The notes beneath the pieces are model-generated. The model saw only the letters and a list, made by a program, of their open reading frames with translations, was not told the origin of the DNA and did no database searches. The translations under genes were made by a program, and so were the position numbers. A stretch of 64,000 bases of DNA from Gracilimonas mengyeensis (GTDB lineage: Bacteria > Bacteroidota > Rhodothermia > Balneolales > Balneolaceae): the NCBI RefSeq assembly GCF_900182705.1, contig NZ_FXTP01000003.1:1-64000 (forward strand), written 5' to 3'. This document shows positions 18,450 through 60,932 of the stretch, one piece after another (positions within the stretch are counted from its first letter, which is position 1; every line of letters starts with the position of its first letter).

Positions 18450-20297
18450 TTACTTCATTAATAGCATTTTCTTTGTTTCAGTGAAGCTTCCTGCTTTTAA
18501 CTTCATCAAGTAAATCCCACTTGTTAAATTGTTTGCATCAAAAGTAACAGTATATGTACCTGCACCTTGCTGTCTGTTTACAAGTGTAGTAACCTTTTGG
18601 CCCAGTGCGTTGTAAACTTCTAACTGTACCGTTGCAGCTTCTGCAACATCATAACTGATATTGGTAGTAGGGTTGAAAGGGTTTGGGTAATTCTGATTCA
18701 GGGCAAAACTGCCTGGAGTGCCTGCAAGTTCATTGCTAATGGTATCATTTACATTCACTGTGGCACTGGTTGTTACTGAATTAACTCCATCGGAGGCCTC
18801 AACAGTGATCGTTTGCTCACCATCCTGACCATCTTCTGGAGTCCAGGTAAATACACCTGTTTCAGAATTAATGGTCGCACCTTCTGGTCCTTCTACTATT
18901 GAATAAGAAACTTCACTTCCTTCAGGGTCAACCGCAACATATGTAAATTCAAATAACTCTCCTTCATTAAGGGTAGCGGAGGATGTCAATGCAGTACCAA
19001 AAGTTGGTGCATTATTTGGTACTTCAACAGTTACAGCTGCTGTAGTTGTATCCGATAAGGAACCGTCAGAGATAACAACTGAAAAGCTGTACTCACCTGT
19101 TTCACTTTCCCAGTTTAGTTCACCTGTTGTTTCATTAATAGTAGCCCCAGTGGGTGCTGTGTCTAACAAGCTGTAAACAATGTCGTCGCCATCAGCATCT
19201 TCGGCTTCATAAGTAAAAGTTAAAGTACTCCCAGTATCTATGGTTGTATCTGGTAAAACAGCTGTAAATTCAGGTGCATTATTCAATACTGCTACAGTAA
19301 CTGTTGCAGTTGTACTATCAGAATAGGCTCCATCGGTAACTATGGCTGTAACATCAAAAGTACCTGTTGCTGATGTTTCCCAGCTGAATTCTCCAGTGGT
19401 TGGATCAATCTCAGCTCCTGCAGGACTATCATCAGCCAATGAATAACTCAAAGTGTTTCCATCTGGATCATCAGCCGTAAACGTAAATTCAAGAGTGCTA
19501 CCAGCATCTACTGTAGTATCTTGCAATACATTAGTGAATTCAGGGGCTGAATTTGCATCAACAATTACTGTGGAATAGGTTGTATCAGAAAGCTCTCCAT
19601 CACTTACAATTGCCTCAATTTTAAAAATTCCTTCTGTGGTGACCCAAGTGAACTCTCCGGTTTCAGAATCAATAGAAGCATTTTCGGGGGCTCCTTCACC
19701 TAAACTAAAATTTAGGGCATCACCTTCAGGGTCTTGAGCTGTATAAGTGAAGTTCAGAACCGAACCCGCCTTTGTTGTGGTATCAGATAAAGCGCCCTGA
19801 AACTCAGGTTTTTGATTTGGGATCTCATCCACTACAGAAACAGATAGATTATATGGCGCTGTAATATTTGTTTGTAGTCTGGTACTGCCATCATAACCAA
19901 CATCAATAATTGAGAAATTAAAACCTTCACTAGATTCTCCATTGTCTTTCAAAATGGCTTCGATTGTGAATAGGATCAGCTCTCCACTAATAGTTCCGCC
20001 ATACGCACCAAATTTTATTCTACCCTTTTCAGGTTCATTAGCGTTGAAAATCCCTGATACTCCTGCACCATTGTAGACATCATCTTCGCTAACACTGATT
20101 AAAGTGGTATCGTAGTTAAATTCAAAGCTATAACTGTCACTTTCGTAGCTTTTGAAATCTGCAGTAACATTGATTTCAACTGTATCACCAGGCATGCCGA
20201 TGATATCACCTCCAAAATCGAGCTCAACAACCTGAGCAACACTTATTTGGGTAAGCAAAAATGCGAATAATAACGATAGTAGATATTTAATATTCAT
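18450..20297 (-). CDS. Secreted cohesin-like protein with Ig-like repeats and T9SS tail
   Basis: 615 residues. A signal peptide ([23 protein letters not shown]) is followed by a cohesin-like module at about 22-155: [21 protein letters not shown], then [14 protein letters not shown] and [10 protein letters not shown]. Four cadherin/putative-Ig repeats of about 88 residues follow, each with a TFTYxAxDxDGDxxxYSL core and a DG-LSDTT end. A further related repeat and a type IX secretion tail ([21 protein letters not shown] ... KKMLLMK) complete it. It should be exported by the Sec and T9SS systems and held on or released from the cell surface. No catalytic domain is visible. It is the last of three neighbouring genes of this type. 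Confidence 0.85.
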
Positions 20298-20505
20298 AGG
20301 TTTATTTCTTGATTAAAACTCTCCGTAACAACTCTTAATTACATTATGGAAAAGTATAATTATAATTTTTCTGCTTCTAAAATTAAGATTTTTCTTCCAT
20401 TAGTTGTGGCAACTATTAGACATACCTGATAATAAATAGGATGTTCCTACAATAATGCCTTTATCAGTTATCGGGTTTTAAGCGATAAACTAAAATCACA
20501 AAACA

Positions 20506-20537
20506 TAAAAAAAGGCTCCCAGGTAAGTGGGAGCCTT
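20506..20537 (-). terminator. Rho-independent terminator after the 717-aa cohesin-like protein gene
   Basis: Perfect 10-bp stem AAGGCTCCCA (20512-20521) / TGGGAGCCTT (20528-20537) with a 6-base loop. On the minus strand a run of T follows to 20506. It lies 35 bases past the stop codon at 20573. Confidence 0.9.
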
Positions 20538-20572
20538 CTCAAACAGTCTCTCTTATTGAGCCTGTATGTATG

Positions 20573-22726
20573 CTACTTCAATAATAACATCTTCTTGGTG
20601 TCTGTAAAGCTGCCGGCTTGTATTTTAAAGAAATACACGCCACTTGTAAGATTTGTAGCATCAAAGGTTACAGTATAGTTACCTGCTCCCTTTTGCTCGT
20701 TTACAAGCGTTGATACTTTTTGTCCAAGAGCGTTAAATACATCAAGTCGCACAGTACTTGCTTCAGGTACTGCATATGTTATATTGGTAGTCGGGTTAAA
20801 TGGGTTTGGATAGTTTTGCTGTAGTGCAAAAGACTTAGGAGTAGTTCCGTCTATAGGAAGACTAACAGTATTGTTTACCATTACTGCCACAGTAGTAGAC
20901 ACTGTTGAATTACCATCGGTTACTTCTACGGTGATGGTATAACTGTCACCATCATCACCTGCGGTTTCAGATGGAGTCCAAGTAAATACACCTCCACCAG
21001 TGATAGAAGCTCCCTCCGGTCCTTCAACCAAGCTAAAGGTCAATTCTTCGCCATCAGCATCTTCTGCTTCGTAAGTGAATTCAAACTCTTCTTCCTCGTT
21101 AATGGTAGCACTTTCTTCCAATACACTTGTAAATGTAGGAGCAGCGTTACCTGGTATGATTTCGATCATGTCCACATAAACAGTTGGGGTAGCTGAAGCA
21201 CCTGAGCCATCAACCTGAAGGCCGATACGCTCAATTGTTTCAGATGGAGGAACTACAATATCCATAGTTACCCAAGTGTCTGCGGCAATGTTACCAGAAC
21301 CGTACCAATTGCTGTTCCAGCCCCATCCATTATTCTGAACAAAAGGCTGAATGCCATTGATCGCACTAAGAGAAGATGCAGGTACGTATACATGGAATCT
21401 AACCGTATCGCCTGGTGCAGCTTCTGAGTTATCATTCACAAATGCGCCATTAGCAGCATCGCTTCCAACGGTGAACATAACGGAATAATCGCCGTCATAA
21501 GCTTGATCATCGGTAATTTCACCTGACGTAGTATAGTTGTTATCGTCGAGGAAATACCAGTAACCGAGCGTGCCATTTTCAAAGCTGAAAGGAGCACTTC
21601 CTGCAACAGTTACTGCAGCAGTATCGGTAACAGAAGAGGTACCATCAGTTGCTTCTACAACAATGCTGTATTCGCCTTCTGAAGTTTCCCAGCTAAAAGC
21701 ACCTGTACTAGCGTCGATAGTTGCACCAGCTGGTCCTTCGAGGATGGAATAAGTTATAGTACCACTTTCACTTGATGCCATGTAGTTGTACTCAAGAGTA
21801 GATCCTGCGTCAACAACAGTATCTGGAAGTGCAGACGTGAATTCAATAAGTCCACCTTCTCCAACTGTAACACTACCATCAACTCCGGTAATTACTACCA
21901 GGTCTCCGTTGCTGTTGAAGAAATCAACTTTAACGAATTCCAACTCAGAGCTTGTTTCTGCCAGATAAGAAACATCCAGCTTTAACAGGTCTGTCCCGTT
22001 GGAAGAAATTGCAGAGCTACCAGCCCAAGCGATTTTGGCAGTATCTGTAGCACTTGTTCCCAAGTCTAAGAGTCCGCCTTCAGAAACAGTACCGTCAGCA
22101 CTAACACCATCAATAGAAATAGCGTCAGAATCGTAGGTAAAGCTGAGCTCGTAAGAATAGATATCTAAACCACTGAGGTCATCAGTAGTAATAACCAATT
22201 CTTCAGAAGAGCCAACTGATCCGTTAACATCAGGTAATGCTATTAATACGTCACTGGCTGAAGTTCTGATATCGAAAGGAGTTGAAACATTGTAAGCCAG
22301 GTCATCGCCAATATTGATATTGGTAAACTGTACACCAGAAGTGTTTACTCCTGAATCTTTAAATGTTCCTTTAACTGTGAACAGTACATTCTCTCCAGTG
22401 ATGCTGTTATTATACGTTGCAAGAATAATTCGGCCCATTTCAGGTTCATTCACCTGAAAATCTCCGGTTACTATAGATCCGGCTTCAATTGAATCGACAT
22501 CAATCTCAACGAGAGACGTGTCATATTCAAATTCGAAATCGAAATTATCGACCTCGGTTTCGCCCAGATCGGCTGTAACTTCGATGGTGAATGCATCACC
22601 GGGTCGGCCGGCAAGATCCCCTCCAAAGTCAAGCTCCACTTGTTGTGCAGATGCCGTGCCGTTTATTAAGAACAGCGTCAGCAGTGCCAACAGCGAGTTA
22701 AATATTATTGTTTTAAAGTTCTTCAT
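20573..22726 (-). CDS. Secreted protein with two cohesin-like modules, CBM-like domain and T9SS tail
   Basis: 717 residues. Signal peptide ends near TASA-QQ. A first cohesin-like module (about 28-155) opens [21 protein letters not shown], nearly the same as in the neighbouring 615-aa protein. A second, more diverged one (about 157-290) has [17 protein letters not shown]. Then come an Ig-like repeat (about 293-375), a jelly-roll, carbohydrate-binding-like domain (about 378-530: [30 protein letters not shown] ... VYVDMIEI), a second Ig-like repeat, and a T9SS tail ([21 protein letters not shown]). No enzyme domain is seen. It is probably a surface adhesin or scaffold. Its own terminator separates it from the next gene. 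Confidence 0.85.
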
Positions 22727-22795
22727 AAGATGATTCCCTTGTTTGTATATGAGATTCTATATAACTGAGATAAATTTCCTTTCATAGAAAGAAAA

Positions 22796-22821
22796 GAAGG
22801 CGGGCAGGATTGCCCGCCTTC
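22796..22821 (-). terminator. Hairpin terminator after the giant secreted protein gene
   Basis: Perfect 11-bp, G+C-rich stem GAAGGCGGGCA (22796-22806) / TGCCCGCCTTC (22811-22821) with a 4-base loop, starting 9 bases past the stop codon. The T-run on the minus strand is short (TTTTC). Confidence 0.75.
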
Positions 22822-22829
22822 CATTCAAT

Positions 22830-25800
22830 TTACTTAATTAAGGTCATCTTTCTTGTGGTCGTGAACGACTTGTTCTCTGCTTTCGCCTGGATGCGGTAGA
22901 TGTATACACCACTTGCAAGTCGAGATCCATCTACATTCACTTTATAAGCGCCAGCGTCCTGACGTTTGCTTACCAGAGTCTGAACTTTCTGTCCGTTAAT
23001 GCTATACAACTCGATGGTTACGTCTGCAGCTGAAGGCAGTGCATAGCTTACAGTTGTAGTAGGGTTGAACGGGTTAGGATAGTTCTGCTCAAGGGCAAAC
23101 TCTTGAGGAGTCGCACGCATGTTCAATTCATCCAGTAGGTATTCACTGTTGTTAGCAAAACCTTTACCTGAGAAGGATGTTTCAGCATACTCATCAGTGA
23201 TAGAGAAGGTCAGCGTAGCAAATTGACGTCCTGAGATAGGTGTTGAGCCTGCGAGAGCAAATTTAACTTTGCCTTCGTCGATAGACTTAACAACCATCCA
23301 ATCTTCTGGCAGACCGTTGAAGTCAATAGACTCAAGGCTTGCAGCAGAAGCGTCGAAGCTTCCGATAAAGTCAACAGCGTAGATTGCAGAACCTTCAACG
23401 TTCAGAGGAACGCTAATGCTTCCGTTGGTTGACTGAGTTTTACCGTATGCAACGATTGCTTGATCAACTTTTGCACTTGTGCTAAATGGCAGCTCTGTAA
23501 TGTCTTCGAGGAAGTAACGGAATGTTACAGAAGCATCGAAGGAGTTTACAGTACCATTTTCGTTTACATCAGCAGCACCTTCTTGTGCAGCAGTGAAGTC
23601 AACTTCTTCAATAGCAGCGCTCAAGATGAGAGAAGCATCAGAAGAGTTAACAGTACCGTCAGCATTCACATCACCGTAAGCAGGGTTAACTGTTACTTCA
23701 AATGTTTGCTCTGCAGTTGCGCCAGTAGCGTCTTCTGCTGTTACAGTAATCGTAATTGGCTGCGGATCAATGGATCCCATTTCACCTGTTACTGTCAGTG
23801 TATCGTTGCTTACGCTTACAGAAGCAGAATCTTCAGCAGAACTTGCAGCTGTAAATGTGTAAGGAGTAGATCCACCAGCAAAGAAGCTAGCAAGAGTATC
23901 TACAGACACAGTACCAGCAGCTTGGTTAGCATCATCACCGGCACGTACTACAACATTATTCATAGTACCAGTTGTGCCGAATACTCCGCCAACGTTCAGT
24001 GTGAAGGATACATTAACTGTATCGTTAGATGCATCAACACCTACCACAGAAATCGTGGTGTTACCCATTGTAAGAGCAGGCATCTCCAGAGTTACACTAT
24101 CTACAGAAGCTTCAGCTACTGAATCAGCAGAAGAGCTAGCAGTGAATGTGTAAGGAGCAGAACCGCCAGAGTAAACTGTGGTTAAGTCGATAGCAAGAGT
24201 GTCGCCTACGTTAGCTACTTGATCGTCAATTGAAGCTACAAATGCAGCGTTCACTTTAACTGTGAGTGAGCCAGTATTGCTGTCACCGAGTTCATCAGTA
24301 GCAGTAATTGTAAAGTTGGCTACACCTTCAGAGCCAGCAGCGATGTTTAATGTGTCGCCATCAGCATCTGCAGTTGCTACCGTAGCATCATCTACAGAGA
24401 TATCATAGCTACGATCGCCAGTACCACCTGAGAACAAGCTGTCCAGGTCGAATGCTAAGTTATTACCAGCGTTAACAAGTAATGTATCAACATCCAGAAT
24501 CTCGAGGTTAGATTTCAGACCGTAGGTAAAGATAGAACCGTTACCTGCCTGAATACCACCTTGTACATTCAGTCCAATAACTGTTGGATAAATGTCTCCG
24601 TTTTCAACGGAACCAGTCTGGTAGTTATCATAATCGTCTGCATTTCCTTGCAGTCTCCAGTCGTTATCTACGTTACCAGCAGCTCGACGGATAATGCGGA
24701 TGTCTTCAACATCGGTAATAGCACCGTCTTGCGTGTACTCACCATAACCCTGACGCTCCATTTCGAGCTCATAAGTAAGGTTAGATGGCAGAGAAGCACT
24801 GGTCTTAATTGGCCAGTAGAACTCATCTGGGTAACGAACAATATTTACACCTTCACGAACACCGTCAACAATTGGGAATCCGTTTTGGCCGCCTGGGTTA
24901 CCTTCTTCGTGACCAACAGTCATGTAAATGCCTTGTGGCAGAGAGTTGGTGTTAGTGAAAGTAAAAGCAACAGGGCTGTACTCATCTTCAGGAGCACCAT
25001 TCAATTCGTCCTGGTTGTTACCACCAACAGGGAAAATAATGCGCTCAGAAGTTCCGCTACCAGCAGGCAACAGTTTACGAACGTTACCAAATACGTGGCC
25101 GTCAGTTCTGTCGAATCCTTGATCTGTGGTAGAAGTGTGTACAAGCTGGATGTAGTTGTTATCACCAGTCCAAACAACACCAGTCTGGAAGTGAGGATCA
25201 ACTGCATTGTTAGAACCATCAGCGAATGTAATATTACCAGATTGGATATATACATTTTCTGCGTTGAATACTAAGGCATCACCCTCTGCAACTTGGTAGT
25301 TACCACCAAAGTTAACGTTCTGAACACCTGTACCATTAAAGGTAATAGTGTTGGTTCCGTCAGTTGTAAAGAATGCAGCAGATTCAGTATCCAAGTCACC
25401 TTGAATATTGATTCCTTGTGTAGTGTTGATATTGATAGCGTCGTTTTCGCCAATTTCTACATCACCAAAGGTATCAGAATTGGCAGCAAGTGTACCAGTG
25501 ATGGTACTTGCAGCTTCGTTATCAACTGTAATAGAGAAATTATCTCCAGCAAAGTAGTTATCTGGTGTATCTGTATCGATGGTACGAGAAGTACGGAAGA
25601 TCACAGTGTAATCTTCACTATCGGTATCGATAGCTGCAGCAAAGTCTGCAACGCCATCTTCAAGCTCAATAGAAGAACCAGCTACAAATGTCAGGTTAGC
25701 ACCTGAGTTATCAACAGTAGTTCCTGTAATAGAGAAGTTACCATTAACGTCAAATGCAGTTGTGATAGCAAGCTGATCGGCAGCTTCAGTAGAAACAACA

Positions 25801-28800
25801 GTGACATCATTTACACTACCAGCAGCAGCTGCAGGCACTTCATTTCCTGTGCTAATTACATCTGCACCAGCGGCTGTCGCATTATTATTATTGTAAACCA
25901 GATCAACAGAGCCTTCAAATGTAGGGGCTACTGCGATGGTGTGTGCATTTTCGGTACGTGTAATGGTTGCACCGTCAGCAATAACAACATCTTCGCTATC
26001 CCCGGAAGGCACTAAAAGTGCAGTATTCAGGGTCAGACCATTTTGAACGGTCAGCACATCACCAGATGTCAGCGTTACGTTGTTTGTACCCTGAACAGTA
26101 AGGTTCGGAATAGAAACATTAGCGCCACCAGTAATGATAGATCGGCCAGCAGCAGTTGCATCAATAATAATTCCACCTGTTCCAGTAGAAGAGGTATATG
26201 CACCTGCAGTAAGGCTCAGATTAGTATTAATCTGAATTGAGTTTTTATTCAACTCAATATCGCCACTTGTGTGAGTGTAAGTACCTGTTACGGTAATAGT
26301 ACGCGCAACTGTAGGAGACGCTGTACTGTTTGTAATCAGCTCAGTATCACCATCAATTTCCAGATCAGCGATCGTTACATCATCAGTCGTAACCTCTGCG
26401 CCTTCCAGAGTCACAACACCACCACCGGTAATGTTTCCTTCTACAGTCAGGGCTTCAGAAACAACTAAAGCTGAAGTTGATGTAGCTGGAGACAACACTG
26501 ACAGGTAAGGAATAGTTGCGCCGTTAGCTTCCAGGTTAGTACCACCTGTAAATACAAGTGCACCGCCTGTAGAGCTAACAGTAGCATCAGCTCCGCCAAT
26601 TGTAATATCAGCACCGTTAATTACCAAATTGTTTCCAGCAAGTGTAAGATCAGAATCATCTGCAATACTCAGAGCACCGTTTGCTTGAGTAGCTGAGGAA
26701 ATAGTAACAGCATCGCCAGCAACAGTTGTAGTAACCGCTCCGTCAATCACACCGTAGTCAGTGCTTGCGTTAGGAGCAGCTTCGTCAGTAGCAATCAGGT
26801 CAACAGTCACTGCAGCAGTAGAAGTACCACCGTTTACAGTAAGAGCACCCATTGACTGGAATCCAGAAATAGTAGCAGCAGATCCAGTAACAGTGAAGTC
26901 AGCTACAGCGTAGTTGTTGTTAGCATCTTCTTCGCCGCTACCAGCTACAGTTATATTATCACCGGAAACAGTAAATGTTGCACGAGTACCTCCGTCAACA
27001 ACAGCACCGGAAACATCATGTGTTTGATTATTACCAGACAGTTCAAAATCGGAAGCCGTAGCTGCATCAGAAAGCAATGTACCATCTTCTTCAATCGTAA
27101 GTACGCCAGAGATCTCGTTAGACTGGGCTGCACCTGCGGCTTGCAAAGTAGCACCATCTTCAATGGTCAAGTTCACCATGGCAATATCAACGGAAGGCAT
27201 GATTACAGAGAAAGCACCCGTAGTACTAATGGTAACATTGCGTACATCAGAGGTGAGTTCTGCACCAATAGTTTGGTTAGCTGTAATAGCACCATCGTAC
27301 TTAATGTCATAAGCAAGTCCGGCATCATTAAAGGAAGCACCACCAGTAACTCCGTCAGAAAGCTGAGGATTTATAGTGAGCTGTTGATTAGCCTGAGTTG
27401 GTGAAATATCAAATGCACCACCAGAAATGGTACCAGAGATAAAAGTCAGGTTTCCACTAAAAGTCACATCTGCATTAAGCGAAATATTGTTAGCAGCTGC
27501 ACCGGTATTCAGTATAATGTTAGAATATCCACTACCAGCAAGAGTTGCACCTGGGGTTGTAAAATACAAACCACCTTCTGTAGGTGTATCACTCACAATA
27601 GTACCATTAGTAGTGTTAGTAACTTGCCCATCAGCCGCAATAGTCAATGTGTTATCTTGCAAGTTGAATGTACCAGCCGTTACAGTAAGAGCAGCAGCAC
27701 CACTTGCGGACAATGAAGCATCGTCAGTTAGAGTAAGTGCCTGACCACTCTTATTCATAGTGATAGCACCAACGCTAAAGTTGGATCCGGGCGTTAATGT
27801 TGCAGCAGCAGTCGTTCCTGTAAAAGAAAGAACAGAAGCAGCCGTAGCAGTAAATGTACCCTGGTCGTTAATAAAAGAACCATTATTCAAGGTTAGAGTC
27901 TGACCTGAAATATCAAGGCCATTGCCTGAATTAATAGTAACATTAGTAGCAGTAACAGAATTACCTGTAGTCATGGTGCCACTATTGATAGTAATATCAT
28001 TTGTAACAACCAGTGGATTTACAGAAGCAACAGCGTTACTACCAGTAACAACTAAGTCACCAATTTCAGCACCAGCTCCAGATGTGGTAATATCATTTCC
28101 AGTTGTTACGGTACCAGTAACCTCAGCATTAGCGGCCAAGTCAAGCGCGCCATCCAAGTCAACATTACCATCAACCATTCCGGCAAGGTTAAATGCAATA
28201 TCACCAGTAGTACTAGTTAGTGACACATTACCAACTATGTCGCCATTACCAGCAACAGCACCTGTACCGCCAACATCGCTCGTGTTATTAATAGTCAAAT
28301 CACCAGTTAGCGTAGCAGCTCCAGCGATAGTCGTAGTTAATACACCAGCATCACCAGCATTTGTTATAGAAACTTCGCCAGTTACATTACCGTTAAACGC
28401 AATACTACCAATACCACTGGCACCGTTATCTGTATCTGCCTGACTAATAGTTACATCACCAGTAATTGCTTTACCAGCTGCAAGGTCTAAACCAGGAGCA
28501 TTTCCTGCAGTTGCATTAACTACAAGATTACCAGTAAAACTATCGTCAAGATCAACAGATGCAGAAGCATTTACGGTAACAATACTGCTACCAATAACAC
28601 CATCTCCATTACCAGAAGCGTCATTCAGGTCAAAAACAGCAACAGTCACATCTTTGGTAAGATCCAAAGCTGTTCCTGCATTTCTGGTTTCAACAATAAG
28701 AGATCCACTACCAAGATCAGCAGGAAGCTCATCACCGGTTGTATAATCAGCAGCTACATTATAATTAACATTAACATTGGTAGGGAAATCAATTGTACCG

Positions 28801-29297
28801 GTAAGCGTACCAGCAGTTGTTCCGTTTCCAACAAAAATATCTCCACCTGTAGTTGTTACAAGATCAGTTCCAGCAACAATATTACCTTGCGTCAGATAAA
28901 TATCATCTACTGAAAAGGTGTTTGCACCGTTAGCAGTAAACGTCAGTGTTTTACCTGAACCATTTATCGTAAGGTCCTGAGTGTTAACCACAGTTTGAGT
29001 ACCAGTAGTTCTAGCAACGAAAGATACTGTTTTACCAACAGTAACGTTTTCGGCGTAGTTACCAGCCTCTATACTAATGATATCACCATCACTAGCAAGT
29101 GACAGCGCATGTGTAATGGTTTCAACCGGACCGTCACTACCACTCAATGATGGGGCAAGACCGTTATTGGTGTTATTACCACCGGTATCCACATAATATG
29201 TTGTTTGCGCGTACGACGTTGTCACACCCATCGCTACGGCAAATAAGAAAGTTAAAATTGAAAAAGCTACCGTTCGTAGCAATTTAGGAGGTTTCAT
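22830..29297 (-). CDS. Giant secreted beta-helix protein with dockerin-like and cohesin-like modules and T9SS tail
   Basis: About 2,155 residues from the ATG at 29297, chosen because AGGAG lies six bases upstream and a signal peptide follows ([31 protein letters not shown]). An in-frame ATG at 29369 would add 24 residues. The N-terminus has a DUF1565-like segment ([48 protein letters not shown]). About 1,400 residues of Thr/Ala/Gly/Asp/Val-rich beta-strand repeats follow, probably a long right-handed beta-helix. Three Ig-like repeats come next, then a dockerin-like pair ([16 protein letters not shown] and [16 protein letters not shown], about 30 residues apart), a cohesin-like module of about 115 residues, and the T9SS tail ([19 protein letters not shown]). 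It is probably a surface adhesin or structural fibre. Confidence 0.85.
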
Positions 29298-30301
29298 ACC
29301 TGGCTCCTCTGTTATTTTAGGTTTTGAGCGTGGTATACCCACGTCGTTGATTATTGAAGCAGTTTTCATAGTGATTTACTTTGTGTATTGGTTATGTATT
29401 ATAAAATGATTGATGTTCGTGTTACAATTCTTTTAAAACCTTACAAATCTTACAAGTTATTCACCTGAAAATGAGTGTATTGCATCCCGATTTTCGCATA
29501 CAAGTCAGCAAATTTACTCATCCATCTGTTGGGGTTAAATTTTTGTTAGAAGTTAAATTGTACATTGTTTACAGACAAGCCCAAATTACTAATATTTTTC
29601 ATTCTTTCAAGTTTCAATAATATAAAAATTTTATCCGAAGACTATGCCAGAAGCATTGTCGATCTTCAGAATATATCAACTGCTTGATAGTATGCTATAA
29701 GTAACTATTAATACTTCACATGCATTCCATTAATGCAGAAAACTTGAATCCTTGTAATTTTTCTGGCTTTATGTGCTTTCAGTGATTGGAAATTATAAAC
29801 AGCATCACAAAACCTATCTATTTTCACTTCTGTTGTCTTCATTTAACTTCCGGATAAATGGCTTTTTTGTGCAATATCGTGCAATTAGCTTTCTTTACTA
29901 TTCGCTATTGCTGATTTCATTTATCAAATTATCTAAAGAACTCTCCCTCTTGAAAGGGGGCACTAAAGATAAGGTCTTGTTCTTACAAAACAAGAATAAA
30001 ATTATGGGAAACTTAGACTTCCGCAATTCTGCTTTTCGGCATTTTAACGGAAAAACTTAAATTTATGTTCGTCATCTACCTGAACTTATAATCCCCACTA
30101 TTGTTCGCTTCAGGATACATGCTCTAAAATGATAGCTAAGCAGCTCCTATTATTTTATCTGATTGGCTGGAGGTCCGTAATTGCCTTCGATGGTTTTGTT
30201 ACTGATTTATGAAATGCATATTCCTTAATTCCAACCAAAACGATTCGTATCTTCTGATTGTTAATCACTCACTCTATTAATTATAAATTATACTATATAT
30301 A
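29298..30301. other. Long A+T-rich intergenic region
   Basis: About 1 kb between the divergent giant secreted protein gene and ypdA. The only sizeable open frame (29773-30060, 95 codons) is A+T rich, lacks a ribosome binding site and recognisable features, and crosses a palindromic repeat (ctctccctcttgaaaggggg at 29941-29960), so I do not call it a gene. The promoter of the giant gene must lie near 29300-29450 on the minus strand. No riboswitch or RNA gene is recognised. Confidence 0.5.
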
Positions 30302-58029: not shown

Positions 58030-60861
58030 TTACTTAATGAGTAATAACTTTTTAGTCATGGAAAAATCACCAGCCTTGAGCTGGTAGATATACATGCCGG
58101 AGGCAAGGTCAGCAGCTTCAAAAACTTCAGCGTGGGTGCCCGCCGGTTGTATCCTGCCATCTACCAATGAGGCCACCACCCGTCCGGACATATCAAAAAC
58201 CTCTAAATTGACTTTGCTGTTCACGGGTAACTGATAACTGATCACTGTAGATGGATTGAATGGGTTTGGGTAATTCTGCCTCAGTGTAAATTCGTCAGGG
58301 AGGCTAATCTCGCTTTCACTGGAGGTTGCCATTTCGTAATCGAAAGTCTCGCAGGAACTCCATTTGTGAGCCAAAATCATATCCTCTTCGCCCATATTAT
58401 AACCACGGCCACGACCAGAAGTATGGAAGGCGGTACATGTAATCGGTATTTCCTCTTTATACTCTTCATAATTATCCCAGGTGCCAGTGGTCATATAGTA
58501 GTAGATCCCTGATGCACCGGGTTCAGCTTCCATCACGTGGGTATAAATATCGCCGTACACATTTTCCATCTCTACAATATCCCAGTTCACGATCACCCCT
58601 GTCAAAAAAACGCCACGGGAAGTATCTTGACCCTCCATATCCACAGCAAATCGAACTTCCGTCGGTTCGGGTTCTACCTGTATATCAAAAGTGAATTTAG
58701 TTTGGCTGCCACAAGCATTGGTATAACGAACAAAGTAACTGCCGCCCTGTTCTTCCCTAAGTTCTTCCAAGGTGATTTCGCGTCCTTCTGCTGTAAAACC
58801 TTCGGGCCCGGTCCAGCTCCAGCTGCCTTCTCCCTCAGCTTGTGGTGCCAACGATACAGTTGCACCAAATTCTACAAAAGCATTGGCAGTAGCCTCAAAC
58901 TCACCGTCCCCAACCTTCAAAAAGGGAGTTATGGGAGTGAGCGCACAGCTGGATATATCTTCTTGGGCAAATTCCACATCAGGTGTAGACAATGGGAAAT
59001 CCATATCGGATGCCACATAAAACCCCGGATGCGGCGGCTGGTTGTAAGCCGTATTCTGCCAGGCTATAGCCGTACGATATACGGGGTCATGCATAAAAGT
59101 GTATAGTCGGTGATCGGTAGGCATGGTCGTAGTAAACACCCGCAAGCGCTCATTATCAGTGGTTCGCAACAACACTTCCTCACGCCAGTCACCTAAAATA
59201 TCAGCCTGAAGATTCGGGTTTGATTTGGTGCCATTGACGGAAGCCGTACCACTGCCTGACAGCAATGTAGTTCCTGAATTATTGGCCACGCTCCACTTGG
59301 TAACCCTGTTGCTGTTCAGCAGCTCACGGCTCAGCTCTCCATCCCACCAAACCACATGGTTGATGGAACTCGGAATCTGCCCTGCCACATTGCCATCCAT
59401 ATCATACAAACCCATTCCACTGGATGCCCAAAACTTGAATCCCGGCACCTCCGAATCCAGTTCTGCAGCCGCACCACGGCCTATGTCTCCTGACTTATCA
59501 TTATTAAAGAGCATAGAACCATCATCCGCATTACGCAGCGATACACCGTATTGATCCCATTCGTGGGGCATAAAAATCTTGGGAATAGGATCGCCTTTCA
59601 CCATTTGGGTAACATGCAGCGCATCGCCATGTCCCTGTCCGGTATTATGCAAACCGGAGCCGTCATCGTCAATTACTACGGAGCCATAAATAATTTCGTG
59701 CCTGCCGTCGTTATCGGCATCTGCTACCGAAAGCTGGTGATTCCCTTGTCCCTCCCAGGAGCTTCCATATTCCGGATCGTCGGTATCAAACACCCAGCGT
59801 TGGGTTAGTTCACCATTGCGCCAGTCCCAGGCTACTACCACCATACGAGTGTAGTATCCACGGGCAAAAATAGCACTCGGTTTTTCGCCATCTACATAGG
59901 CCACACCGGCAAGGAAACGATCTACCCGGTTGCCGTAGCTGTCGCCCCAATCCTCCTGCATGGTACCACCACGTACCGGCACATATTCAGTGGTCGCCAG
60001 CTCCGCGCCTGTCTCCCCGTCAAAAACAGTAAGATACTCCGGGCCTCTCAATATATAACCGTCACTATTACGAAAATCTGCGGAATGATTCGCTGAAGCA
60101 GCCGGTCCTTTACTCAAAAAATTACCATTGCCATCTTTAGTGCCGGGAGCCGTTTTCACCATCAATTCGGCTTTTCCGCTGCCATCAAAATCATACACCA
60201 TAAATTGTGTGTAATGCGCCCCAGCCCGGATATTACGTCCGAGATCAATACGCCACAACATGGCGCCATCCAGCGTGTAGGCATCCAGATATACATTATC
60301 AGTCTTGCCTGCCTGTGAATTATCTTTGGCATTCGAGGGATTCCATTTTACTACCACTTCATACTGGCCATCGCCATTTAAGTCTCCCACAGAAGCATCG
60401 TTGGGCGAATAGATGCCGCCCTCCGGGCCTTGCTGTGGTCGGTTTAGCGGTATATCAAAATAGCCGGCGTGTTCGCCTTCTGTGTTTTTAATCAGCCTTG
60501 CCGGCTTGCTGTCGGTTTGTTCGGAGCCATCCACCACGGCACGCACCGTATAATTAGGGGCTTCTCCGCCATCGGTATCTGTGAACAAGGTAGCACCCGT
60601 AATCGGGGCTTCATTTAGTTTTTCTCCGTCACGGTACACATTAAAACCGGTGTCGTAGGCTTCATTTCCCAGCAATCGCCAGGAAACCAGATAGCCGTTC
60701 TCTTGCGCTATAGCTATCAGTCCACGATCTAAATTTTCCACCTGTTTGGTTTGAGCCTGGGCCGTAGAACCCAAACTCATCATCCCGCTAATAATTAATA
60801 CCGGCAGCAGGAATATTCCCATCACTGTCTTCATATTTATGCTGTTATTAACATCTATCAT
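58030..60861 (-). CDS. Rhamnogalacturonan lyase, PL11 family, with T9SS tail
   Basis: About 943 residues. Start is uncertain: an ATG at 60861 and another at 60834 (MKTVMGIFLLPVLIISGMM, a good signal-peptide start) both fit. The mature part begins VENLDRGLIAIAQENGYLVSWRLLGNEA, with the PL11 beta-propeller (PNDASVGDLNGDGQYEVVVKWNPSNAKDNSQAGKTDNVYLDAYTLDG, YDFDGSGKAELMVKTAPGTKDG). Repeated Asp-rich calcium-binding loops continue to about 590. Ig-like domains and the T9SS tail ([21 protein letters not shown]) follow. It cuts the rhamnose-galacturonate backbone of pectin outside the cell. Last residues KKLLLIK are typical of the tail. Confidence 0.92.
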   Translation of the reverse strand: MIDVNNSINMKTVMGIFLLPVLIISGMMSLGSTAQAQTKQVENLDRGLIAIAQENGYLVSWRLLGNEAYDTGFNVYRDGEKLNEAPITGATLFTDTDGGEAPNYTVRAVVDGSEQTDSKPARLIKNTEGEHAGYFDIPLNRPQQGPEGGIYSPNDASVGDLNGDGQYEVVVKWNPSNAKDNSQAGKTDNVYLDAYTLDGAMLWRIDLGRNIRAGAHYTQFMVYDFDGSGKAELMVKTAPGTKDGNGNFLSKGPAASANHSADFRNSDGYILRGPEYLTVFDGETGAELATTEYVPVRGGTMQEDWGDSYGNRVDRFLAGVAYVDGEKPSAIFARGYYTRMVVVAWDWRNGELTQRWVFDTDDPEYGSSWEGQGNHQLSVADADNDGRHEIIYGSVVIDDDGSGLHNTGQGHGDALHVTQMVKGDPIPKIFMPHEWDQYGVSLRNADDGSMLFNNDKSGDIGRGAAAELDSEVPGFKFWASSGMGLYDMDGNVAGQIPSSINHVVWWDGELSRELLNSNRVTKWSVANNSGTTLLSGSGTASVNGTKSNPNLQADILGDWREEVLLRTTDNERLRVFTTTMPTDHRLYTFMHDPVYRTAIAWQNTAYNQPPHPGFYVASDMDFPLSTPDVEFAQEDISSCALTPITPFLKVGDGEFEATANAFVEFGATVSLAPQAEGEGSWSWTGPEGFTAEGREITLEELREEQGGSYFVRYTNACGSQTKFTFDIQVEPEPTEVRFAVDMEGQDTSRGVFLTGVIVNWDIVEMENVYGDIYTHVMEAEPGASGIYYYMTTGTWDNYEEYKEEIPITCTAFHTSGRGRGYNMGEEDMILAHKWSSCETFDYEMATSSESEISLPDEFTLRQNYPNPFNPSTVISYQLPVNSKVNLEVFDMSGRVVASLVDGRIQPAGTHAEVFEAADLASGMYIYQLKAGDFSMTKKLLLIK

Positions 60862-60932
60862 CACGCCTCGATTTTCAACCCTGTAGAGATCTAAAACCCT
60901 TCCAGAGTTATTACAATTTTAACTTTTTGCTT

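Follow-up and report, generated by a model that had tools for sequence, protein, structure and literature searches.

A T9SS-tailed dockerin and cohesin gene cluster in Gracilimonas mengyeensis, probably encoding a non-enzymatic surface scaffold

In a window of 64,000 nucleotides from Gracilimonas mengyeensis (contig NZ_FXTP01000003.1, positions 1 to 64,000; the whole stretch of DNA analysed here), three neighbouring minus-strand genes encode, in order of transcription according to the open reading frame (ORF) list, a giant protein, a 717-aa protein and a 615-aa protein. We propose that together they probably specify a non-enzymatic surface scaffold, displayed by the type IX secretion system (T9SS), in which the dockerin of the giant plugs into the cohesins of the 717-aa protein and probably into that of the 615-aa protein. 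A non-cellulosomal surface assembly had been raised as a possibility in a first-pass annotation of this DNA. It is now the favoured reading: the modules passed their family models (the 615-aa protein being borderline), no catalytic family was found on the three proteins, the other dockerin protein of the genome (309 aa) has no recognised enzyme part, and the gene order is conserved across the phylum (Bacteroidota, in the sense of GTDB). The genes and modules of the cluster are as follows.

22830..29369, minus strand: giant T9SS cargo protein, 2179 aa (ORF, Pfam; family A7 of eight relatives)
23511..23678, minus strand: type I dockerin of the giant, two calcium-loop repeats (PF00404)
23091..23501, minus strand: cohesin-like module of the giant, 'cohX', directly after the dockerin (PF00963, 24.4 bits over 23178-23432)
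22869..23081, minus strand: T9SS type A sorting domain of the giant (PF18962)
20573..22726, minus strand: 717-aa scaffoldin-like protein with cohesin, cohesin, immunoglobulin (Ig)-like, CBM44-like and Ig-like domains and a T9SS tail (ORF, Pfam, phmmer)
22307..22621, minus strand: cohesin 1 of the 717-aa protein (PF00963, 33.4 bits; AlphaFold model)
21863..22240, minus strand: cohesin 2 of the 717-aa protein (PF00963, 24.5 bits)
21143..21601, minus strand: CBM44-like carbohydrate-binding domain of the 717-aa protein (phmmer to 2c26_A)
20588..20812, minus strand: T9SS type A sorting domain of the 717-aa protein (PF18962)
18450..20297, minus strand: 615-aa protein with a cohesin, four Ig/cadherin-like repeats and a T9SS tail (ORF, Pfam)
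19857..20246, minus strand: cohesin of the 615-aa protein (PF00963, 21.4 bits, just below the cut-off)
18465..18689, minus strand: T9SS type A sorting domain of the 615-aa protein (PF18962)

The giant consists of a repetitive beta-rich arm, an Ig/cadherin-like stretch, the dockerin, the cohesin-like module cohX and the T9SS tail; a methionine at 29297 is an equally good alternative to the ORF start at 29369. Its dockerin scored 46.2 bits (E 5.4e-12) against PF00404 in the Pfam scan and 52.7 bits in the genome search, the curated cut-off being 22.9, and was matched by phmmer to Clostridium thermocellum CelS, endoxylanase Y and other clostridial dockerins. Both calcium loops, already pointed out in the first-pass annotation, are complete ([12 protein letters not shown] and [12 protein letters not shown]), and, judged from the sequence alone, the ligand residues D1, N3, D/N5 and D12 are kept in each. 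The cohesin-like module noticed beside them also holds, lying above the curated PF00963 cut-off of 24.1 bits; the best Foldseek match of its model was the Clostridium perfringens cohesin 2vo8 (E 3e-4), and Ig folds of adhesins scored almost as well. The repetitive character of the arm suggests that it is probably a beta-helix. Pfam gave no family match on the arm of the window giant, and it recognised right-handed beta-helices in related giants of other families.

The 717-aa protein had been credited with a cohesin-like module; the cohesin assignment stands by its profile scores, and there are two modules rather than one, both above the cut-off. A model of the tandem (mean predicted local distance difference test, pLDDT, 67.7, i.e. 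moderate confidence) gave as top Foldseek matches the ScaA type II cohesin dyad and cellulosomal cohesins, and cohesin 2 superimposed on C. thermocellum CipA cohesin-2 (1anu) with a Z score of 14.2 over 123 residues (root mean square deviation 2.3), so that modelling supports a cohesin jelly-roll fold. Absent from the earlier annotation was the CBM44-like domain. Residues 376-528 resemble the second module of an endoglucanase fragment from C. thermocellum (2c26_A; E 7.7e-9, 39 bits by phmmer) with three tryptophans aligned, and CBM_4_9 reached 20.3 bits, below its cut-off. As a lead only, we take the second module of 2c26 to be CBM44 and the aligned tryptophans to be its glucan-binding platform. 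The domain is single-copy in the genome and was found in none of the other cohesin proteins compared from relatives, and it therefore looks like a lineage accessory. Having two cohesins and this domain, the 717-aa protein shows the layout, cohesins plus a carbohydrate-binding module (CBM), of a small scaffoldin, with far fewer cohesins than CipA.

For the 615-aa protein, the proposed cohesin-like module is borderline by PF00963 and is 47% identical to cohesin 1 of the 717-aa protein. A family profile gave it 63 bits, although this same cohesin was among the sequences used to build that profile.

All three proteins carry the T9SS tails ascribed to them, with PF18962 scores of 50, 48.7 and 37.7 bits (cut-off 27) and TIGR04183 likewise above its cut-off. 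Since the genome encodes a full-length SprA homologue (TIGR04189, 1544.8 bits), from which the translocon was judged, and 83 T9SS sorting tails, T9SS cargo is common in this organism and the three tails are likely to be used. The PF00963 cohesins found genome-wide number four, and all of them, including the one below the cut-off, sit in the cluster. Dockerin genes number only two, the giant and a gene on another contig for a 309-aa protein, in which a reading of the sequence recognised a dockerin and an interrupted T9SS tail and nothing else. The latter gene (locus L085, 9082-10011; contig C1, about 579 kb, of genome G000) has its T9SS tail broken at a run of about ten G residues, beyond which tail-like sequence resumes in another frame; the run may be a site of phase variation or an artefact of assembly.

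The Pfam scan found no catalytic family on the giant, the 717-aa or the 615-aa protein, as had been claimed from the sequence, nor on six further dockerin or cohesin proteins that were scanned; in the eight-member giant family there were none either, the only names being marginal and below threshold. Nor was an enzyme domain recognised on the dockerin proteins of the genome, as judged by Pfam for the giant and by reading for the 309-aa protein, in a survey of enzymes that was not exhaustive. Because no dockerin-bearing enzymes were recognised, we do not regard the system as a cellulosome; it would work in the manner of a scaffoldin system.

The arrangement of the cluster recurs well beyond this genome. 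The closest relative of the giant is in Balneolaceae MES10 (49% identity over the dockerin-cohesin unit and about 52% over the arm), and the giant arms in eight loci form one sequence family; a scan of contigs with a three-row alignment returned one member of the family, that of MES10, and two Ruminococcus dockerins. Within the order, a cohesin gene comes after most dockerin genes, on the same strand and usually at a distance of 100 bp or less. The 58 relatives gave 60 dockerin hits, of which 36 have a cohesin hit on the same strand no more than 4 kb away, pairs within one protein included; chance alone would give about 0.2. Among 394 genomes of the phylum, cohesins occur in 127, dockerins in 135 and both in 89 (odds ratio 11, p 2e-24, uncorrected for phylogeny), the modules being present in about a third of the genomes sampled. 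The order seen in the window, giant, two-cohesin gene, one-cohesin gene, is found again in other classes (L108, L109, L151, L152, L155 and L157), and in L110 with an extra two-cohesin gene in between.

Clusters containing dockerins of the type designated docA come in two forms. In the first, a large protein carries docA, a cohesin-like module and a tail, and the next gene encodes two or three N-terminal cohesins; in the second, a protein with a cohesin, docA, a cohesin-like module and a tail is followed by a gene that usually has one cohesin. The 394 genomes were also searched with the docA-cohX unit alone, which gave 72 positives, and long, previously unseen proteins were taken as held-out loci. 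There, the next recognised downstream gene (the nearest same-strand ORF matching one of five local profiles) carries cohesins in 25 of 29 cases. A broader count has 40 of 47 docA genes followed by a cohesin gene; since that set was partly picked for having both modules, the held-out figure is the fair one. Pairwise identities of dockerins and of their partner cohesins correlate at 0.54, or 0.50 when the tail is controlled for, which is suggestive and confounded by shared inheritance.

Other arrangements were seen in the same survey. A distinct dockerin subfamily (VWPGDTNNDG..., with about 35 extra residues between the repeats) usually occurs in the same protein as an N-terminal cohesin (L041, L042, L050, L058, L059, L061-L064, L079, L092, L093, L096 and L098). 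The most cohesin-rich scaffoldin-like protein, of 2582 aa, has six weak cohesins and is encoded near a dockerin gene (L127, 1184-8932). Genus-mates have giant T9SS proteins of about 2,900-3,600 aa with a cohesin-like module (L087, L088, L089 and L090), three of the four in genomes that gave no dockerin hit (G004, G005 and G007).

For the cluster of the window we infer physical pairing of dockerin and cohesin, together with binding in trans, its dependence on calcium, its stoichiometry and an adhesive or structural function. The T9SS would export all three proteins, which would stay on the outer surface; there the single dockerin of the giant would bind, with calcium, the two cohesin sockets of the 717-aa protein and probably also the single socket of the 615-aa protein. 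A short scaffoldin could then gather two giant beta-rich arms on the surface and hold them near a polysaccharide bound by its CBM44-like domain, the outcome being a surface fibre, matrix or adhesion complex. With type A tails, T9SS cargo ends up attached to the cell surface once the tail has been cut off. Unlike the enzymes of a cellulosome, both partners would then have an anchor of their own, and this would fit a layer or fibre made by cross-linking proteins that are anchored beforehand. Perhaps the system is wider still: a phylum-wide T9SS surface organelle, in which the gene for a dockerin-tipped giant beta-helix directly precedes that for a multi-cohesin scaffoldin, the products self-assemble with calcium into a non-enzymatic fibre or adhesion layer, and the terminal unit of dockerin, cohesin-like module and T9SS tail is distinctive. 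This we put forward tentatively, as a proposal that stops somewhat short of probable.

The three genes had been described as separately terminated. Terminator-like hairpins were located for two of them, and the search 3' of the 615-aa gene found none.

22795..22822, minus strand: terminator-like hairpin 3' of the giant gene (12-bp stem and T-run)
20509..20540, minus strand: terminator-like hairpin 3' of the 717-aa gene

Given hairpins of such strength, the genes may be expressed independently of one another or at graded levels. A further T9SS-tailed protein of the window (58030-60864, minus strand; about 944-962 aa) is, as far as seen, unrelated to the cluster.

Several points weigh against a scaffold assembled in trans. 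Strong terminators stand between the genes, and co-expression is thus not required; a shared gene neighbourhood indicates functional linkage and not contact; each protein has its own T9SS tail, so that a surface linker is not strictly needed; and in the model of the dockerin with cohX, built from five aligned rows, the dockerin region has a pLDDT of about 40. In addition, the cohesin-like module of the giant itself could allow cis or homotypic pairing.

The last point leads to the alternative that survives best, although we consider it unlikely: that the dockerin of the giant binds cohX, the module next to it, whether within one chain (cis), as a locked C-terminal stalk resembling X-dockerin units, or from one giant to the next, giving head-to-tail homopolymers, and that the neighbouring cohesin proteins have another purpose. 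Nearly all docA proteins examined do have a cohesin-like module separating docA from the T9SS tail. This module is, however, the least conserved of the set, with a mean pairwise identity of 0.19 against 0.25 for the partner cohesins and 0.44 for the dockerins, and modules of this kind also end the giants of those genus-mates that have no dockerin hit. Self-pairing would moreover leave the conserved downstream cohesin gene unexplained. For cohX itself we provisionally favour a structural role, like that of X-modules.

Quite unlikely, in our opinion, is a purely architectural use, in which cohesins and dockerins would serve T9SS surface proteins as beta-sandwich and calcium-stabilised spacers that do not pair. 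Strings of Ig, PKD and cadherin-like spacers are indeed common in T9SS proteins, but spacers would have no need of matched neighbours, and the co-occurrence of cohesins and dockerins across genomes, the strict dockerin-then-cohesin gene order and the retention of calcium ligands and GDVxxxG repeats in most docA units speak against this use. A pared-down cellulosome-like device built on the 717-aa scaffoldin, which would recruit enzymes encoded elsewhere to a beta-glucan by way of its CBM44-like domain, has the classical cohesin-plus-CBM layout and the kept tryptophans in its favour, but is very improbable given that the two dockerins of the genome sit on the giant and on a protein without a recognised enzyme part, and that no other compared cohesin protein has the CBM44-like domain.

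Cohesin-dockerin pairing is known mainly from cellulose-degrading complexes, and the non-cellulosomal cases are mostly lists of modules without named partners. Here plug and socket genes lie adjacent in a fixed order in many genomes; candidate partner pairs can therefore be named and their function becomes testable. If the pairing is true, it would represent a new route to surface assemblies in T9SS bacteria and a source of new high-affinity module pairs.

Compared with the clostridial cellulosome (CipA), the cluster has in common a type I dockerin whose calcium loops number two, cohesins in tandem with the same fold (Z 14) and, on the cohesin protein, a domain that resembles a CBM. It differs in that no dockerin enzyme was recognised, the dockerin sits on a giant beta-rich protein, the cohesins number two plus one, and anchoring is by T9SS tails rather than by S-layer homology (SLH) domains or sortase.

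According to Peer et al. 2009 as cited in PMC9012536, cohesins and dockerins also occur outside cellulosomes, in bacteria and archaea that are not cellulose degraders. The cluster belongs to this loose class, within which it is set apart by a fixed gene pair or trio, multi-cohesin partners, T9SS export and phylum-wide occurrence. Candidatus Stygibacter (Cloacimonadota) has a large scaffoldin with cohesin repeats and a CBM, whose conserved C-terminal domain its authors assigned to surface attachment; its dockerins sit on a chitinase, an amylase and peptidases, and the whole was interpreted as a complex of enzymes (PMC8542988). The 717-aa protein resembles that scaffoldin in joining cohesins to a CBM-like domain and a C-terminal tail for the surface, and of the two systems dockerin enzymes were recognised in Stygibacter only. 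The non-cellulolytic anaerobic methanotrophic (ANME) archaea possess scaffoldin-like multi-cohesin proteins for which extracellular assembly has been proposed; their context is the archaeal S-layer, transporter binding proteins are among the partners, and there is no T9SS (PMC9012536). The cohesins of C. perfringens glycoside hydrolases (2vo8, 2jh2, 2w1n) are also non-cellulosomal, and one of them provides the closest fold match to cohX, but they sit on the catalytic domains of secreted enzymes, unlike those described here. A description of the docA/cohesin gene pair was not found in open-access papers, subscription papers lying outside the search. We regard the dockerin-then-cohesin pair of T9SS genes as a new variation within the known non-cellulosomal cohesin-dockerin systems.

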